Assembly (NCBI GenBank): GCA_023139225.1
Contig: JAGLNZ010000010.1
Location: forward strand, 1-9,073
Direction of reading: 5' to 3'
From: Desulfobacula sp.
GTDB taxonomy: Bacteria > Desulfobacterota > Desulfobacteria > Desulfobacterales > Desulfobacteraceae
Length of the DNA: 9,073 nucleotides
The position numbers were made by a program, and so were the translations under genes. The notes beneath the pieces are model-generated. The model was not told the origin of the DNA. It did not search any database and worked only from the letters and a program-made list of their open reading frames with translations. Shown in pieces: positions 1,280 through 9,073 of this stretch (position 1 is its first letter; every line of letters starts with the position of its first letter).

Positions 1280-1990
1280 TTAAAATGAAAACTTGTCCCA
1301 GAATTTAAAGGACCCAAGGTGATGTGCGCCCGGAAGAAAGGGTTTAACTTCAGGGTATTTTTCTACAAAAACTGTTTGAAATCCAATGCGTTTTTTATTA
1401 AACCGGTTATGGCTGTCCGCAGCCACCCTGTACCGCATATAATAGGCATCATAATTTTTCATGTGCTTCTGACTTTTATTTTCCATAATATCTTTAAAAT
1501 TTGTATGGGTATACGTTAAAAGCGTCTCAAAACTTGCAAGATAATTGACACGACTTTTATGGTGCTGAATGACATTATGATCATTGTAAAATTCTTTGAT
1601 GGCAAAAACCCAGGCAAGATTCTTTCTATTAAAAAATTCTTCATGATCCTGTGTAAACACAAGCAGCCTGTCAATGACTTTTTGATTGTCTTTTACCAGT
1701 TGTCTTAATTCGCTGATCAGTTCGATCGTCGACTTTATATCGGTTATTCTCGATTGGACCATACTGATACCGTCAAGCTTTCCCGAGGCATTATATATAT
1801 CAATCGTACTCTTTTTAATATCCTCATTAAGCTTAATCATCTGTTTTATTATTGGAGGGACATTATCCTGTGTTTTTGTTTTCTTGTTTGAAACATAATA
1901 AAAAATCCCTCCTGCCGAAACCATTAAAAAAATAATCAGGAAAATAACAATCAAAATTGTGCCGGAGCCTCTTCTTGTTTTAAAAATCAT
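1280..1990 (-). CDS. Single-pass membrane-anchored protein of unknown function
   Basis: I do not recognise a family for this 236-residue protein. What can be seen: a short basic N-terminus (KTRR, residues 4-7), one strongly hydrophobic segment at residues 11-33, then about 200 mostly helical, polar residues. The positive-inside rule suggests an inner-membrane anchor with the bulk of the protein in the periplasm. The helical part (about 47-210) has heptad-like hydrophobic spacing reminiscent of a helical-bundle sensory or structural domain, and its second half is rich in His, Tyr, Asn and Lys. There is no catalytic motif and no cytoplasmic signalling domain. Translation starts after AGAAGGAT placed about 9 bases upstream. 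It lies 63 bases downstream of the HTH gene on the same strand, so the two may be cotranscribed. The reading frame is credible by start context and membrane segment; function is unknown. Confidence 0.72.
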   Translation of the reverse strand: MIFKTRRGSGTILIVIFLIIFLMVSAGGIFYYVSNKKTKTQDNVPPIIKQMIKLNEDIKKSTIDIYNASGKLDGISMVQSRITDIKSTIELISELRQLVKDNQKVIDRLLVFTQDHEEFFNRKNLAWVFAIKEFYNDHNVIQHHKSRVNYLASFETLLTYTHTNFKDIMENKSQKHMKNYDAYYMRYRVAADSHNRFNKKRIGFQTVFVEKYPEVKPFLPGAHHLGSFKFWDKFSF

Positions 1991-2053: not shown

Positions 2054-2800
2054 TTATTCATTCAATACCAGTGAAATAATGTCATTGACTGATTTTTTTA
2101 AGCCCGGTATTTTGCTTGCACTTCTACCGGCAACATTAAGTACCTTTATATCAAACTGGGGCAGCCATTGCCGCAATACCTTGGCAGGATTTTTTTCTGT
2201 TTCAAGATCTATGTGGCGCCAGGGCTTTTTGTGGGCTTTTGCAAAATTTATGGAATCGGCAGCATTGGGCGTAAGCTTGCCAAAGGAAAATACAATGGTG
2301 CCATCGGCATCCAATACGTTTTTTTCTATATTCTCATCGTTCTCACCTTCCCCCTTGGTTAACTCAATAATGTCCGTTAATTGTTCATTGATCTCGTTAA
2401 GCTTTTGATGGCTGCCCTTTTGTTTTCGTATACCCTTAAACGTTTCCACATTTGCCCCGGTGATGGCTGAAGTTAAATTCTCAATTGTTGTGATCAAGCG
2501 TTCAAACCTTTCGCCCAATTGTTCAAACTGGGCCATATCCATAGGTGCCATTGCTGCTGCAGGAGCTTGGTCCGTTGGTGCAGGCCCGCCCAGTTTCACC
2601 CGGATCTCCTCTTTTGTCATGCCGCTTGTCTGATAATATCCATAAATTTTCTTTATAAGATCTTCTGCCTCCGGCGGATATTCCTTGACACCCTCATGTT
2701 CGACCGGATCAGGAAAAAACTCTTCAAACCGACTTAAATATTCACGAATGGTACTTGATGAAATGTCCAGACCTTTAGCCATTTGAGCAATTGATTTCAT
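2054..2800 (-). CDS. MerR-type HTH protein with C-terminal half of a molybdenum-carrier-like (cpMoCo/YpsA-type) fold
   Basis: The 248-residue protein has three parts. Residues 1-70 resemble a MerR-family winged helix-turn-helix: a first helix-turn-helix (ISSSTIREYLSRF, 13-25) and a downstream helix pair ending in GMTKEEIRVKL (60-70), so DNA binding is likely. Residues 71-160 are an Ala/Pro linker followed by a helical, probably coiled-coil, region that could mediate oligomerisation. Residues 162-247 resemble the C-terminal half of the putative molybdenum carrier family (DprA/LOG/YpsA-like Rossmann fold): DGTIVFSFGKLT (166-177), a KPWRHIDLE strand (192-200) and LNVAGRSASKIPGL (221-234). The N-terminal half of that family, with its Gly-rich SGGQTG-type loop, is absent. 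The protein may therefore be a ligand-sensing regulator, but cofactor binding is inference. The ATG at 2800 follows AGGGA at a spacing of 6 bases. It heads a probable two-gene unit and is divergent from the receiver cassette, which it could regulate. Confidence 0.8.
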   Translation of the reverse strand: MKSIAQMAKGLDISSSTIREYLSRFEEFFPDPVEHEGVKEYPPEAEDLIKKIYGYYQTSGMTKEEIRVKLGGPAPTDQAPAAAMAPMDMAQFEQLGERFERLITTIENLTSAITGANVETFKGIRKQKGSHQKLNEINEQLTDIIELTKGEGENDENIEKNVLDADGTIVFSFGKLTPNAADSINFAKAHKKPWRHIDLETEKNPAKVLRQWLPQFDIKVLNVAGRSASKIPGLKKSVNDIISLVLNE

Positions 2801-3032: not shown

Positions 3033-3758
3033 ATGGCAGAAAAATTTGACCATACGGTATTAATTGTTGATGATGAAGAAAAAATCGGGAAAGCGCTTGG
3101 CCGGCTGATGAAAGGCATTGGCGCCAAATATGTTTATCTGGAATCAGGACAAAAGGCACTTGATAGAATAAAAACTTCCTCCAAGCCCTTTTCTTTAATC
3201 CTTTCGGATCAGCGAATGCCGGGAATGGAGGGATCTGTTTTTCTGGAAAAAGCCAAAGAAATTGCTCCGGACACCATCCGTTTTCTCATTACAGGCTATG
3301 CAGATGTGGATGCGGTTACCGATGCCGTAAATAAAGGGTCCATACACCGGTATATTGCCAAACCCTGGGATAACAAAATATTGGCTGAAACTGTCAGGAC
3401 CGGCCTTGAACAACATGAACTGATCATGGAAAACCACAGGCTGTTTGCACTTGCCAAAGATCAGAATACAAAATTGTACACACTTAACACGGATCTTAAA
3501 AAGAGTGCCGCCGTCCATCAAAAAGCAATTGTTCAAAAGGACAAACAAGTCGCCGAATTAAATGCCCGCCTTGAAAAAGGGTTTGAAAACAGAAATTATA
3601 TCAATGAAATGGAAGCCCTCCTAAAAGAAAATCAACTGCTGGATAACGAAAAGCTCAACTCACTTTATGTTGCTGTAATTACTGAGCTGTACGAACAATT
3701 TCAGGATATTGCCACCCGAAATGGTTTTGAAATGCCGGAAGATATTCCAGGAGGATAA
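3033..3758 (+). CDS. Stand-alone response regulator receiver with C-terminal coiled coil
   Basis: This 241-residue cytoplasmic two-component protein has a complete receiver domain at residues 6-127. The acidic pocket D13-D14, phospho-acceptor D59 (in SDQRMPGM), T87 and K110 (in AKPWD) are all present, so it should accept phosphate from a histidine kinase. The receiver is of the type often joined to HD-GYP outputs in RpfG-like regulators, but here no output enzyme follows. Instead residues about 128-225 form a helical, probably coiled-coil, tail, starting with the KDQNTKL segment (142-148) that recurs in both downstream paralogs. There is no DNA-binding domain. It probably works by protein contact, for example by pairing with the two FapA proteins through the shared coil, or acts as a phosphate sink; this is inference. 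It is first in the cassette and its stop is one base from the next start. No partner kinase lies in the window. Confidence 0.92.
   Translation: MAEKFDHTVLIVDDEEKIGKALGRLMKGIGAKYVYLESGQKALDRIKTSSKPFSLILSDQRMPGMEGSVFLEKAKEIAPDTIRFLITGYADVDAVTDAVNKGSIHRYIAKPWDNKILAETVRTGLEQHELIMENHRLFALAKDQNTKLYTLNTDLKKSAAVHQKAIVQKDKQVAELNARLEKGFENRNYINEMEALLKENQLLDNEKLNSLYVAVITELYEQFQDIATRNGFEMPEDIPGG
3749..3754 (+). promoter_or_regulatory. Ribosome binding site that sets the start of the receiver-FapA gene
   Basis: AGGAGG, embedded in the last codons of the preceding gene, lies 5 bases before the ATG at 3760. It rules out the longer in-frame start at 3709, which lies inside the upstream gene and would add 17 residues before the receiver. 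The stop (3756-3758) and the start are one base apart, so translational coupling is likely. Confidence 0.85.
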
Positions 3759-3759
3759 G

Positions 3760-6654
3760 ATGTCGGATAACAGTGAATATGGTATCCTTGTTGTTGATGA
3801 TGATGAACCCATAGTAAAAAATATGCGCCGGGTGTTGCGGCGAAAAGGATTCACCAAACTGACTTCCGCTCTCAATGGTGAGCAGGGCATCAAACTATTG
3901 GAAACCAGCCAGACCCCCTTCTTTTTAATCATGTCCGACCAGCGCATGCCAGGCATGTCCGGCAGTGAATTTTTAGAAAAAAGCATCTTGCTCAGCCCGG
4001 AATCTAGGCGGATGCTGATTACAGGATATTCAAATTTTGATGCCATTATGGATGCGGTTAATAAAGGCGAAATCCACCAGTATATTTCAAAACCATGGGA
4101 CAATGACGATCTCTTGCTCAGGATAATGGGTGAACTTGAAATATATAAAAATTTCCAGGAACGAAAACACCTTTATAAGGTTACAAAACGTCAGAATGCA
4201 AAACTGTTTGATCTTGCTTCATCCCAGAAAAAAGAGCTTCAAAAATTCACCATTGCCCTTGAAAACAAAAAAAAAGAGGTTGAACTGCTTATCCAGTCAG
4301 TCAAAGAGGCAAAGGATCAAGCCGAATTCAAAGAGATTTTTCTAGGGCTTGATGAACTTCTTTCCAGAACCATTACCATGAATAAAAACAATCTTACCCA
4401 GGCATTTAAAATAGCAAGAAAAGAAGTCATTTCCATGGCGGAAACCATTTCAGACCGAAACGAACTGTCCTTTTCGTCGGGAAACAGTCATAATGACAAC
4501 GCGGATATAGCTGAGCCGGAAGATGAAATATTTGAAATTATTGATCAGATTATTGAAAATGTGGTCATTGCCATCGAACCGAGCCTTTTTGGCATTGGAT
4601 CTGAACCCAGTACCGGTGTTGTGATTGATGATTACAAACTATTACCGGAATTTGATGAACTGGCATTTAATGACGGGTTTATCACTAAAGGCGAGCGTGA
4701 AAGAGCTTTGGAAGAGCTGGAGGAAAAAGAGGCTGGATTGTCCATGGGGCTAACCATTGATAAAGTCCTGGCCCAGAATGACTTTTTAAGAAGACAGGAC
4801 TTAAGCCGAATATTTGCAAAACTTGCCATGATTGAAACCAGGCTTTTAGACCGGGAGCTTGCTAAAATGATGGTGGCTCGGGAGATTGCATCAAGAAAGG
4901 ATATTGACCGGGCGTTTCGAAAACAATTAAACAACTTTGAAGACAGCGGAGTGGCAACATTTTTAGGCGATATTCTGGTGGAATCCGAGATTATTGACCC
5001 GGCAATCCGGGATGAAGTTATGGCCGCTCAGGATCGAACCGGGAAAAAGAAAAGTGCCATTGACCAGTCTTCTCAATTTTCTTCTGAATTCGGCGCTTTT
5101 GTGGATCTCCAGATTTCAGAAGACAGGGTTCAGGTATGGATACGGGTTCCCAAGACCGTGCAGGGGACAACAGATGTTGAACCGGTCAAGAAACTGATAA
5201 AAAAACGCGGTATAAAGTATGGCATCGCAGATGACATGGAAATTCGCAAATTTCTAAAAAATTGCACTGATCCCCATGAAAAATTTATTGTGGCCCGGGG
5301 AATTGCCCCCAGTGTTGGAAAACCGGCCCAGATTATATACCATTTCAATATAGAATCTGATTCAGCAGGAATCATCAATGAAGATGGTTCCATTGATTTC
5401 AAGGCAAGGGGAGATTCTCCCTTTGTGAAAAAAGGGCAGGTCCTGGCTGAAAAGAAACCCATGGAACAACCCAAATCCGGCATAGATATTTTTGGTGAAA
5501 CCCTTCTGGTGGGTGATGTGGATGATGTCCCCCTTGAAGGCGGTGAAGGGGTTGAATTGTCAGAAGATGAATTAACACTGACTGCGACCATTACAGGCCA
5601 GCCAAGTATTGATATCAAAGGGGTGATATCTGTCCTGGAATCCTTTACCATCAAAGGGGACGTGGACTTTAAAACCGGTAATATTAATTTTAACGGCAAT
5701 GTGATTGTCACCGGCACGGTTAAGGAAGGCTTTCTTGTTGAATGTGAAGACCTGACGGCCAATGAAATTAATGGCGGTATCATCAGAATAAAGGGAGATC
5801 TTAAAATTTCCAATGGTATTGTGAATGCGAATATCCAGACTCAGGGCAGTGTTCAGGCCAAATTTCTGAATAAAACAAAACTATACGGATATGGCGATAT
5901 GATGGTAACAAGAGAAATCATGGAATCCCATATTGCCATCAGTGGAGGCCTGAATAATGAGGCCGGCAGGATTACGGCCTGTACCATTGCTGCCAGAAAA
6001 GGGATGAGCGTCAAGCAGATCGGTACGGAAAAATCCGAATATTCCACTGTCAAAGCAGGAGCAGATGATCATATCCGATGGATCGCTGAAAAATATGATA
6101 CAAAGATAGAAAAAAAGCAAAAAGAGCTCGACTTAACCATTGCAGGGAAAATGGAATACGATGAAGCGTATAATGCTTTGCACGTTGATATTGCCAACCA
6201 GACCTTTGCCCAGGAAAAAATCACCAAAAAAATAGATTATTTAGAAAACAAAATTGGAGAACTCAAAGAAAAAGAAGAAAAGGCCAAAATCGTCAAAGAG
6301 CTCAAAGAGCTTGAGGCAACGGTACAACAAGCTGACAAGAGGATTAAAGCCATTTTTGAAGAGCAGGATGTTGTCCAGCAAAAATCCAATGAAAATGAAA
6401 AGAAAATTGAAGAATTAAATGAAAAAATTCAAAGCATACAAAAAGAAAAGGACAAGCTCATCAGCCGACTTGAAAAAGAAGATCCGATCCCTGAACTGAA
6501 AGTCAATAAAAAACTTTACACAGGCACAAGAATAACCGGCACCCAGGCCTCCATGATTCTCAAACAGGATCTTGGCGCTTCAAAATTCACAGAAATTGAT
6601 TCACAAAATCCTGACAGCCCAAAGCAGCTGATTCACCAAACCATTAACCTGTAA
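3760..6654 (+). CDS. Response regulator with helical repeats and FapA (DUF342) beta-solenoid domain
   Basis: This 964-residue protein has several parts. (a) Receiver, residues 5-128, with D13-D14, phospho-site D60, T88 and K111, so it should be phosphorylatable. (b) Coiled coil from about 138 with the KRQNAKL segment, then helical and acidic sequence to about 280. (c) A helical region at about 290-427 with two internally similar units that resemble MshEN/GspE-N-type repeats; the clearest is FLGDILVESEIIDPAIRDEV near 400-420. (d) FapA N-terminal region at about 444-625, including DGSIDFKARG. (e) Beta solenoid at about 630-760, starting with GDVDFKTGNINFNGNVIVTG. (f) A long Lys/Glu-rich coiled coil at about 768-907. 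(g) A closing strand segment (KLYTGTRITG) that probably returns to the solenoid. FapA proteins are linked to flagellar assembly and polar functions in Vibrio, but no flagellar gene is nearby, so the role here is open. No signal peptide: cytoplasmic. It is cotranscribed with both neighbours. Confidence 0.92.
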   Translation: MSDNSEYGILVVDDDEPIVKNMRRVLRRKGFTKLTSALNGEQGIKLLETSQTPFFLIMSDQRMPGMSGSEFLEKSILLSPESRRMLITGYSNFDAIMDAVNKGEIHQYISKPWDNDDLLLRIMGELEIYKNFQERKHLYKVTKRQNAKLFDLASSQKKELQKFTIALENKKKEVELLIQSVKEAKDQAEFKEIFLGLDELLSRTITMNKNNLTQAFKIARKEVISMAETISDRNELSFSSGNSHNDNADIAEPEDEIFEIIDQIIENVVIAIEPSLFGIGSEPSTGVVIDDYKLLPEFDELAFNDGFITKGERERALEELEEKEAGLSMGLTIDKVLAQNDFLRRQDLSRIFAKLAMIETRLLDRELAKMMVAREIASRKDIDRAFRKQLNNFEDSGVATFLGDILVESEIIDPAIRDEVMAAQDRTGKKKSAIDQSSQFSSEFGAFVDLQISEDRVQVWIRVPKTVQGTTDVEPVKKLIKKRGIKYGIADDMEIRKFLKNCTDPHEKFIVARGIAPSVGKPAQIIYHFNIESDSAGIINEDGSIDFKARGDSPFVKKGQVLAEKKPMEQPKSGIDIFGETLLVGDVDDVPLEGGEGVELSEDELTLTATITGQPSIDIKGVISVLESFTIKGDVDFKTGNINFNGNVIVTGTVKEGFLVECEDLTANEINGGIIRIKGDLKISNGIVNANIQTQGSVQAKFLNKTKLYGYGDMMVTREIMESHIAISGGLNNEAGRITACTIAARKGMSVKQIGTEKSEYSTVKAGADDHIRWIAEKYDTKIEKKQKELDLTIAGKMEYDEAYNALHVDIANQTFAQEKITKKIDYLENKIGELKEKEEKAKIVKELKELEATVQQADKRIKAIFEEQDVVQQKSNENEKKIEELNEKIQSIQKEKDKLISRLEKEDPIPELKVNKKLYTGTRITGTQASMILKQDLGASKFTEIDSQNPDSPKQLIHQTINL

Positions 6655-6668
6655 AGGAAAAGAAAATA
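6655..6668 (+). promoter_or_regulatory. Ribosome binding site followed by an apparent ATA start codon
   Basis: AGGA (6655-6658) lies 7 bases before ATA (6666-6668), an ideal spacing. The frame is closed upstream by TAA at 6645-6647, and there is no ATG, GTG or TTG between that stop and the ATA. Starting at the ATA gives (M)AETKKHKILVIES, which matches the N-termini of the two upstream paralogs in length. Later in-frame candidates are GTG 6696 (inside beta-strand 1), TTG 6717 and ATG 6729; these would cut into the receiver fold and have no placed ribosome site. Confidence 0.6.
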
Positions 6669-9073
6669 GCTGAAACAAAAAAACATAAAATACTTGTGAT
6701 TGAATCGACTATTGCCTTGTCAAACAGGATGCAGAGCCTTTTGTCTGCCAAAGAATATCAAGTGAGCAGTTTCAAAGTGTCAGCCGATGCACTTGAAGAT
6801 CTTGAAGCATCGAAAACCTCCCCCTATACCCTGATCATCTCAAGCTATATAATGCCCAAGATGAAAGGGGATGAAATCCTGAAAAATGCAAAGGAAACAG
6901 CCCCGGATACCCAGCGGTTACTGCTCGCAGATACGGCCGATTTGCAGACCCTGGTCAGCGCCGTTAATGAGGCCGGCATCCACTCCTGCCTTACCCTTCC
7001 CTTTGAAGATAAGGACTTTCTCATGCAGGTGAATCATTGCTGCAACCAATATGAAATCAACAAAAACCAGAAAAACCTCAATAAAATCATCCAGCGCCAG
7101 AATAAGCAGCTATTTCAAATTGCCGATAATTTCAAAAAAAAAGAAGCCTTATATTCAGACCAGCTTGGGGGAAAAGAAAAAAAAATTCGCATACTTGAAT
7201 CCCGAATCCGGGCGACAGGCAGATCTGCCTATCCGGATAAACCTGCTTTGCTGCAAGATATCCTGGCCAAACGCAATGTTTCATTTTCTTTGAATAATTT
7301 TGGTGAAGAATTTATAAAAATTCGGGATCAGATAAAACAAATTATTGAAACGAGCGTTTCCAGTCAAAATATTATACTTAAACCAATTTCATATCAGGAA
7401 GCATTTGCCCATACGCTCTCAACAAACGGATCCCGGCCTTTTGCAGAAAAAATACTGCCGTTGGTCTATACCCTGCTTAAAAAAAAGAATATGCCCGATG
7501 TTGAATCATCCGGAGAAGTCAAGGCAGTTATTCTGGATGACCATTTTGAACTGACGCTTTCAAAAAATAAAACCCAGGCATTGATTAAAATAAAAACAAC
7601 TGATCATCACATATTAAATCTTGCTTATGTCAAACAATTTCTTGAAAAAAATAAAATTATTAACGGGTTAAAAGAGGACCATGAAATAGATACCTGGCTT
7701 CACAAGACCACCCCGGAGGATGAACCCTTTATTATTGCCAGGGCAAAAGAACCCAAATTTCCGAAAGATGCTCAGATCAGATACCATTTTTCAACCAATT
7801 TCCTCCATGCCGGAAAAGTAAACAAAGACGGCAGTATTAATTTTCAAGACCGGGGTGAAATCCCTTATATAGAAGAGAATGCTTTTCTGGCAGCAAAGAT
7901 TTTTCCTGAAGAGGGCGCCCCCGGTATTGATGTCCTTGGAAAAGAGATTGCCGTGGGTGACCCCGTTGACCTTACCTTTTCCTCGGGTCCCGGAACCAGG
8001 ATATCTGAAGATGGTGTTAGAATCTATGCCACAACAGCCGGACAGCCCCACCTTGACGCTATGGGAAATATTTCCGTCTGCCCGGAATTTCAGATTAAAG
8101 GGGATCTTGGATTTGAAACAGGAGATGTGAACTTTGACGGTAATGTTATTATAAACGGCACTGTAAAGCAGGGTTTTAAAGTCAAATGCGCCTCTTTAAC
8201 CGCTAAAGAAATTCAGGGTGCCCAGATCGATATAGAAGGAGATCTGAACGTCTCTTTAGGAATCGTCGATACAGAACTTGTAAAAGTAAAAGGCTCTGTT
8301 CAGGCCAAATTTGTTCACAACTCCAAAATCAATGCCTTTGGCGACCTGATTGTTCAAAAAGAAATCATTGATTCAAAAATAAATTTAAGCGGTGCCTGCA
8401 TTAATGAAAACGGCTCCATCATTAATTCTAAAATTTCTGCAAAAATGGGCATCAGTGCCGGCAGTATCGGGAATAAATCTTCAAAACCCTCAACACTTAC
8501 CGTCGGCGTGGATGAACATGCCAATCTGCTTGTGGCCAGGGTTGACTCAAAATTGAACATCAATAACACTGCGGTCAATGAATTGACAACCGAAGTCAAA
8601 GAACTTGAAAAAGAAGACCAGGACATGCATGCTCTCATATCCAAACAGGCCTATATCCAGGACCGGGGCCAGCTGGAATTAAAAAATATTGAAAAAAAAA
8701 TGGAAGACCTGAAAGCTTCAGGGAATATGGCAGCATTTCAAAAGGTGTCCAAAACCATTAAGGAAATACAAAAAAATACAAAAAAAGCTGAAGAAGAAAT
8801 CAACAAAGGATTTGACCGCCAGGATGGGATCATTCTTGAAATTTCCCAGAAAAAAGGCAGGATAAAAGAATTTGAAGACCAGAACAAAGAACTTTTAGAT
8901 GAGAAAAAGCGATTATTGGAATTTTCGGACAGAAAAGAGCCCTTACCCGAAGTAAAGGTTGCAAAAAAGATAGAATCCGGAACAAAAATTTTTGCTGCCA
9001 ATTCATCCTTGAACCTATACAACTCTTCTTCCAGGTGCAGGATCAAAGAATTTTCCAGAAGCCCGGATGGTGC
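6666..9073 (+). CDS. Pseudo-receiver / FapA (DUF342) beta-solenoid protein, 3' end beyond window
   Basis: The frame is open from 6666 to the window edge (802 codons), clearly a paralog of the preceding gene. Residues 1-130 align without gaps to its receiver, but every catalytic position is changed: D13 to E, D14 to S, D60 to S (in ISSYIMPKM), T88 to A, K111 to L. It should not be phosphorylated by the normal chemistry. A coil with QRQNKQL (143-149) follows, then helical sequence to about 270 that lacks the MshEN-like repeats. The FapA N-terminal region is at about 280-470 (with DGSINFQDRG), the solenoid at about 475-610 (GDVNFDGNVIINGTV), a long coiled coil at about 627-758, and a closing segment (PEVKVAKKIESGTKIF). 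By comparison with its paralog only about ten to twenty residues should be missing at the right edge. The start appears to be ATA, 11 bases after the previous stop. The protein is cytoplasmic and probably pairs with the active receiver-FapA protein; this is inference. Confidence 0.85.
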   Translation, partial: MAETKKHKILVIESTIALSNRMQSLLSAKEYQVSSFKVSADALEDLEASKTSPYTLIISSYIMPKMKGDEILKNAKETAPDTQRLLLADTADLQTLVSAVNEAGIHSCLTLPFEDKDFLMQVNHCCNQYEINKNQKNLNKIIQRQNKQLFQIADNFKKKEALYSDQLGGKEKKIRILESRIRATGRSAYPDKPALLQDILAKRNVSFSLNNFGEEFIKIRDQIKQIIETSVSSQNIILKPISYQEAFAHTLSTNGSRPFAEKILPLVYTLLKKKNMPDVESSGEVKAVILDDHFELTLSKNKTQALIKIKTTDHHILNLAYVKQFLEKNKIINGLKEDHEIDTWLHKTTPEDEPFIIARAKEPKFPKDAQIRYHFSTNFLHAGKVNKDGSINFQDRGEIPYIEENAFLAAKIFPEEGAPGIDVLGKEIAVGDPVDLTFSSGPGTRISEDGVRIYATTAGQPHLDAMGNISVCPEFQIKGDLGFETGDVNFDGNVIINGTVKQGFKVKCASLTAKEIQGAQIDIEGDLNVSLGIVDTELVKVKGSVQAKFVHNSKINAFGDLIVQKEIIDSKINLSGACINENGSIINSKISAKMGISAGSIGNKSSKPSTLTVGVDEHANLLVARVDSKLNINNTAVNELTTEVKELEKEDQDMHALISKQAYIQDRGQLELKNIEKKMEDLKASGNMAAFQKVSKTIKEIQKNTKKAEEEINKGFDRQDGIILEISQKKGRIKEFEDQNKELLDEKKRLLEFSDRKEPLPEVKVAKKIESGTKIFAANSSLNLYNSSSRCRIKEFSRSPDG

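Follow-up and report, generated by a model that had tools for sequence, protein, structure and literature searches.

Conserved AUA, AUU and AUC start codons have been described for few bacterial genes (PMC5472188, PMC13009471), and infC, the gene of translation initiation factor IF3 itself, is known to have a non-canonical start (PMC5472188, PMC13009471); these two articles and the two cited below on FapA are used here in excerpt, and what is said of them applies to those excerpts. In Streptomyces, sigR starts at GTC in 32 of 34 species and at GTT in the other two, and its start is repressed by IF3 and keeps SigR below RsrA (PMC5472188). In Staphylococcus aureus, reporters with the AUA start of ccpN and the AUU start of cvfC1 reached about 10% of AUG, with ccpN rising to as much as 30% in rich medium (PMC13009471). 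Members of the FapA family include a flagellar, pole-linked protein of Vibrio, whose partner EIIA-Glc binds only when dephosphorylated (PMC6877527), and BB0267 of Borrelia, which sits in a flagellar operon (PMC11607428). The present analysis concerns a cassette of three receiver and FapA genes (g1, g2 and g3) of Desulfobacula sp., carried on a stretch of 9,073 bases, hereafter the window, which is the entire contig JAGLNZ010000010.1 of a draft genome (GCA_023139225.1, 77% complete), so everything beyond the cut in g3 is out of view.

The gene pcnB is reportedly, going by the title of a cited work, a further case with an AUU-type start. We judge it somewhat better than an even prospect that the cassette represents a conserved receiver/FapA module in which the dead-receiver gene g3, devoid of an ATG, GTG or TTG backed by a Shine-Dalgarno (SD) sequence, has a predicted weak ATA, ATT, ATC or GTC start and is likely scarce relative to its live partner g1. 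Both sigR and g3 are signalling genes that share an operon with their partner and have a non-canonical start, predicted in the case of g3, that is conserved; unlike sigR, which encodes a sigma factor, starts mostly at GTC and has an experimental record of IF3 repression, g3 would encode a scaffold, ATA, ATT and ATC dominate among its starts and its IF3 repression is inferred. With infC, ccpN and cvfC1 it shares a third-base-altered AUG behind an SD, although the kinds of gene differ and no receiver or FapA protein occurs among the examples in the excerpts of PMC13009471. The Vibrio protein belongs to the same FapA family, but control there is by the phosphotransferase system, not a two-component system, and the excerpts of PMC6877527 mention no receiver domain; BB0267 shares the family and a motility context, whereas no flagellar gene stands among the annotated neighbours of the module here. 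Among the titles listed from the open-licence literature, none dealt with proteins that join a receiver to FapA or with non-canonical starts in the family; the text match to DUF342, the other name of FapA, was DUF3427 in one paper and DUF3426 in another, and PMC8789113 has FapA only in a reference.

The start codon of g3

The 36 ortholog rows of g3 (window included) and 20 paralog rows were anchored at the conserved K-I-L strand, and the upstream codons were listed with their SD energies, which represent the duplex with an assumed anti-SD string that may differ from this genome's own; where the same odd codon stood twice in a row, the better SD was counted. From the upstream stop to the first strand, the window g3 contains no in-frame ATG, GTG or TTG, and the first such codon, the GTG at 6696 (residue 11), lies within the first receiver strand. 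Given the 11-base gap between g2 and g3, the start is therefore predicted at the non-canonical ATA (6666..6668, + strand), which has no SD-backed ATG, GTG or TTG near it and is aligned with the ATG of the outgroup, and which follows an SD-like AAAGGA (6653..6658, + strand) that overlaps the stop codon of g2 and gives a duplex of -5.6 kcal/mol with the assumed string.

The trait is not peculiar to the window, as 25 of the 36 ortholog rows (window included) are without an SD-backed ATG, GTG or TTG at the start, compared with none of the 20 paralog rows, which are all canonical there. In 24 ortholog rows no canonical codon is found within 16 codons, and the twenty-fifth (G112) has just an ATG without an SD. 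The odd codons of the 25 rows comprise ATA (5), ATT (5), ATC (13) and GTC (2), located 7 to 9 codons ahead of the anchor, at a position that aligns with the ATG of the outgroup g3 orthologs, and every one of them (25/25) has an SD at working distance, with energies from -5.3 to -8.7 kcal/mol. The remaining ortholog rows consist of eight with ATG, six of which have an SD weaker than -5, and three that are unclear. Two adjacent odd codons are possible in G056, G008, G110, G115 and G122, and some rows of genus g14 have a canonical codon further upstream, inside g1. The two GTC rows, L067 (G035) and L086 (G043), align with the ATC of their sisters, the GTC having arisen twice on the tree; in both, an ATA or ATT stands two codons 5' of the GTC, very near the SD. 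By contrast with g3, the matches of its partners at the cassette loci mostly open with ATG (17 of 20 for g1, 19 of 20 for g2). Because 25 ortholog rows have the trait in common, an error of sequencing as its origin was rejected.

A maximum-likelihood tree was constructed from the 56 g3 rows, and the orthology of the distant rows rests on it. The 25 odd-start rows and the three unclear ones constitute a single clade of 28 (support 100/99), within which the tree calls for six codon changes (four in the third position) along branches that sum to 9.0 substitutions per site. That the codon has switched among the 25 rows without a clear return to NTG suggests that the weakness of the start itself has been maintained. 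On this signalling scaffold the odd start thus appears to have persisted in several genera of a single family, its codon changing without becoming a clear AUG.

Database records present a similar picture. In clusters of at least 50% identity, the listed g3 clusters, from the best 120 of 126 matches, place their initial M inside the homologous position in 65 of 90 cases (contig-cut pieces included), at it in 9 and upstream of it in 5, with 11 lacking an initial M, whereas for g2 the listed clusters start at the homologous place in 77 of 87, inside it in 3 and upstream in 6, with one lacking M. For the nine g3 clusters with M at the place, reversion to a normal start is probable. Among the public records P0001-P0120 many g3 orthologs are N-terminally cut, and some, P0025, P0029 and P0042 among them, lose the receiver match.

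For comparison, infC was inspected in 14 genomes including that of the window, and all 12 readable copies (G000:C735 (L150), L147-L149, L151-L157 and L160) have ATA at the homologous place behind an SD-like stretch. In the window's genome, ATA GCT opens both infC and g3.

Live and dead receivers in a conserved gene order

The three genes lie head to tail on the + strand with gaps of 1 and 11 bases, and the layout given in a preliminary description of this DNA is thereby borne out; its domain reading (receiver-coil, receiver-repeats-FapA, pseudo-receiver-FapA) is likewise confirmed by Pfam and by the active-site residues. The first gene, g1 (3033..3758, + strand), starts at ATG and encodes a free live receiver with a coil (241 amino acids; Response_reg E 1.7e-15), in which D, D, D, T and K are present. 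The second, g2 (3760..6654, + strand), also starts at ATG and encodes 964 amino acids with a live receiver, helical repeats, FapA_N, FapA and a coil (Response_reg 7.7e-17, FapA_N 7.8e-33, FapA 1.1e-30); its phospho-acceptor Asp60 is encoded at 3937..3939 (+ strand), as judged from sequence and alignment, and its FapA_N and FapA domains at 5104..6282 (+ strand). The third, g3 (6666..9073, + strand), runs into the contig end and encodes a dead receiver, a coil, FapA_N and FapA (Response_reg 1.2e-9, FapA_N 8.9e-30, FapA 2.9e-31), the latter two at 7545..8720 (+ strand); a database copy is identical across 777 residues and continues 14 residues past the window's end, and the expected size of a separate g3 product is about 90 kDa. 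Membership of the FapA (DUF342) family is clear, with FapA_N/FapA bit scores of 113.8/107.6 for g2 and 103.8/109.5 for g3 against curated cut-offs of 27/31. For all three receivers the best NCBIfam model is nitric_RR_NosR (a cyclic di-GMP (c-di-GMP) phosphodiesterase response regulator), far under its cut-off.

The active-site positions read D D D T K in g1 and g2 of the window and E13 S14 S60 A88 L111 in g3, with the codon of Ser60 (6843..6845, + strand) standing, by alignment, where the phospho-acceptor Asp is expected. The residues D13, D14, D60, T88 and K111 of g2 are invariant across 41 aligned sequences, window included, and the g2 relatives retain the Asp pair, Asp acceptor, Thr/Ser and Lys in 19 of 19 at each site, while among 19 g1 relatives the counts by site are 19, 18, 18, 16 (plus one Ser) and 19. 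In g3 the acceptor Asp occurs in one of the 36 ortholog rows and none of the 20 paralog rows, and the Lys in none of either. By its residues g3 is thus a pseudo-receiver, without the Asp acceptor and the Lys of a phospho-receiver. The split into active and inactive receiver-FapA proteins that had been proposed for the window extends by residue alignment to its relatives.

The repeat region of g2 (residues ~290-430; 4627..5049, + strand) is helical in an AlphaFold2 model and, by eye, consists of about four strongly conserved helix-turn repeats between receiver and FapA. DUF4388 matches it weakly in 5 of 10 members (best E 0.001), and no family was found for the window's own copy; the c-di-GMP-binding MshEN domain, an idea prompted by a motif, gave no match in Pfam or among PDB sequences. 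Fold comparison with the FapA part included gave result lists filled by receivers, and the best 60 of 222 and the best 60 of 223 PDB sequence matches included no relative of FapA.

The preliminary description would have lost its footing had the order been found in one genome only; the complete trio, in the same order, is carried by 10 other genomes (G018, G005, G056, G020, G002, G052, G035, G029, G070 and G055). In G012 and G124 its upstream part is lost to a contig edge, and in G037 g2 and g3 are about 4 kb apart. The g3 of G012 (L074) has a frame break near residue 360 on a low-coverage contig of a metagenome-assembled genome (MAG), from assembly error or decay. The idea of a dedicated unit accordingly holds as regards conserved gene order, but not with the trio as its basic form, since 19 loci (18 genomes) have g1 ahead of g3 and no intervening g2, and this pair is the commoner arrangement; the core unit is probably g1+g3, with g2 an added live-receiver FapA. 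Four loci have g1+g2 without an adjacent g3 (G048, G031 and one locus each in G042 and G028); in three of them g2 is just 34-37% identical, and G048 and G031 have less than 2.5 kb of contig remaining. The gene g1 also lies ahead of g3 paralogs at 10 of 10 loci checked.

The paralog loci L107-L126 represent a second group of pairs of g1 and a dead-receiver FapA gene with canonical starts, which in several genomes are flanked on one side by a carboxyl transferase plus DUF6125 gene and on the other by a glycosyltransferase gene. Of 389 genomes drawn evenly from the order, 40 have a g3 match at E <= 1e-150 (paralogs included), all but two of which belong to the window's family. A MAG labelled Gammaproteobacteria (L054, JAAEMR010000087.1) carries g1+g2, with g2 56% identical to that of the window, and a separate pair of g1-like and g3-like genes; the label or the binning may be wrong.

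Flagella and neighbouring genes

Co-occurrence with flagella was assessed in 86 genomes of the family, where genomes with a group-1 g3 were counted as having the module (38, of which 34 full or nearly so and 4 partial), and those whose sole match was to a paralog or to the FapA part were counted as without. FlhA or flagellin was detected in 38 of 38 genomes with g3 vs 28 of 48 without (Fisher 1e-6, ignoring shared descent), flagellin alone in 34/38 vs 24/48 and FlhA alone in 37/38 vs 25/48. For FlhA or flagellin, differential distribution was also observed within the window's genus (9/9 with g3 vs 5/17 without) and within g14 (6/6 vs 2/7). The receiver/FapA module is probably a motility-linked signalling system.

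The earlier statement that no kinase is encoded is true of the cassette itself but does not extend to its surroundings, as the flanking DNA covered contains a REC-HisKA-HATPase kinase gene at 16 of 39 related loci, counting the locus that supplied the query, and at none of 10 paralog loci; the window contig ends inside g3, too early to reveal such a gene downstream. At some loci the surroundings further include PAS-kinase-REC-Hpt, REC-HDOD and HDOD genes and, in one case, a REC-HD gene. Divergent from the cassette, a gene with a MerR-type helix-turn-helix and a cpYpsA (circularly permuted YpsA) SLOG domain by Pfam (2054..2800, - strand) is found near the module at 12 of 39 loci and its product is possibly a regulator of the cassette; a further gene (1280..1990, - strand), seen at 7 of 39 loci, encodes 236 amino acids with an N-terminal hydrophobic stretch by eye and no family above cut-off. 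The recurrent annotated neighbours of the pairs and paralogs are mostly metabolic genes.

Competing explanations and proposed working

Several observations weigh against a weak start for g3. In G034 and in the two copies of G111 a canonical codon is close by; six g8 rows (G110, G112, G102, G046, G113 and G115) have, 23 codons past the anchor, a GTG whose SD energy is -4.0 to -5.4; evolution is faster over the first 30 codons of g3 than over the gene as a whole (dN/dS, the ratio of nonsynonymous to synonymous rates, 0.31/0.60 against G018); and nine of the 90 listed clusters have M at the homologous place, which points to probable reversions to a normal start. Several of the canonical outgroup starts have weak SDs (six of eight above -5), and SD strength alone therefore does not mark a start; for infC, too, a GTG lies 2 to 7 codons 5' of the ATA in 6 of 12 copies. 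The g8 GTG and the fast-evolving first codons fit a true start at an internal canonical codon, with the odd codon a matter of chance and the first strand dispensable in a dead receiver, as do the GTG or TTG that 16 of the 25 rows carry two codons past the anchor and the internal codons picked by gene callers in those 65 clusters, which include the contig-cut fragments. Such a start is nonetheless very improbable, since the internal choices are scattered from residue 10 to beyond 60, the commonest has a median SD of +1.05, strand b1 of the receiver would be cut, and the weak codon matches the outgroup ATG in the alignment with an SD in all 25 rows. That g3 starts at the weak codon but that this is tolerated, not tuned, by ribosomes which end on g2 or g1 and re-initiate nearby, is unlikely rather than far-fetched: the window g3 starts 11 bases past the g2 stop, its SD overlaps that stop, and in trios generally g2 stops a few bases ahead of g3, so coupling might offset a weak codon. 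Against tolerance, G102 retains ATC although its g3 lies about 260 bases past g1, six codon changes without a clear NTG return fit selection for weakness better than neglect, and g1 and g2 at the same loci mostly keep ATG. Production of g3 as a g2 fusion, through stop-codon readthrough or a frameshift, would suit the seven loci (G018, G005, G020, G052, G035, G012 and G124) where g3 is in the frame of g2 with only the g2 stop between, but the frames differ in the window, G056, G002 and G070 and the g1+g3 pairs have no g2 between; as frames vary by locus and g3 exists without g2, fusion was rejected as a general mechanism and its likelihood is next to negligible.

The link to motility is exposed to doubt on other grounds. 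The flagellar test ignores shared descent and genome size, the g8 difference is not significant (11/11 with g3 vs 7/8 without), four g3-bearing genomes have no flagellin, G000 (77% complete) has flagellin and no FlhA match, which incompleteness may explain, and no flagellar family is found among the annotated neighbours, only part of the neighbours being annotated. A module unlinked to motility, with co-occurrence produced by descent or by larger genomes, is consistent with the neighbours, the non-phylogenetic test and g8, but recurrence of the pattern in two genera, the window's and g14, speaks against it; this explanation is a minority prospect, and a serious one.

From the preceding comparisons we infer a working in which initiation at the odd codon, low g3 abundance, IF3 control, docking and location would combine. 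Hybrid kinases encoded close by probably phosphorylate g1, and g2 where present, and the dead receiver of g3 is the probable docking site of phosphorylated g1, with the FapA solenoid and the coiled coil of g3 forming what would be a fixed scaffold, probably at a flagellar site. The level of g3 is expected to be below that of g1 because of the analogy with the GTC start of SigR and the AUA and AUU starts of S. aureus, and on the same analogy g3 would be held back at initiation, with IF3 as the probable agent. With g3 limiting, the weak start would determine how much live receiver there is per scaffold, as would, via IF3, the state of translation initiation. The g2 protein, a FapA subunit, was probably added later; it would be a sensor of phosphorylation in its own right and probably mixes with g3.

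The g3 records carry a practical consequence, in that database entries often truncate these proteins and cut into the receiver domain, as in the 65 of 90 listed clusters. In terms of biology, the weak-start reading would add g3 to infC, pcnB, sigR and ccpN as a candidate for control of stoichiometry through the start codon. The module also connects two-component signalling and, through co-occurrence, flagella with the FapA/DUF342 family, which is poorly understood. A further step, which we regard as decidedly doubtful, is that the module couples translation state to motility, the g3 scaffold being made in step with IF3 availability because infC of the same cells also starts with AUA; if true, ribosome supply would set the number of live-receiver signalling sites carried by the flagellar apparatus.

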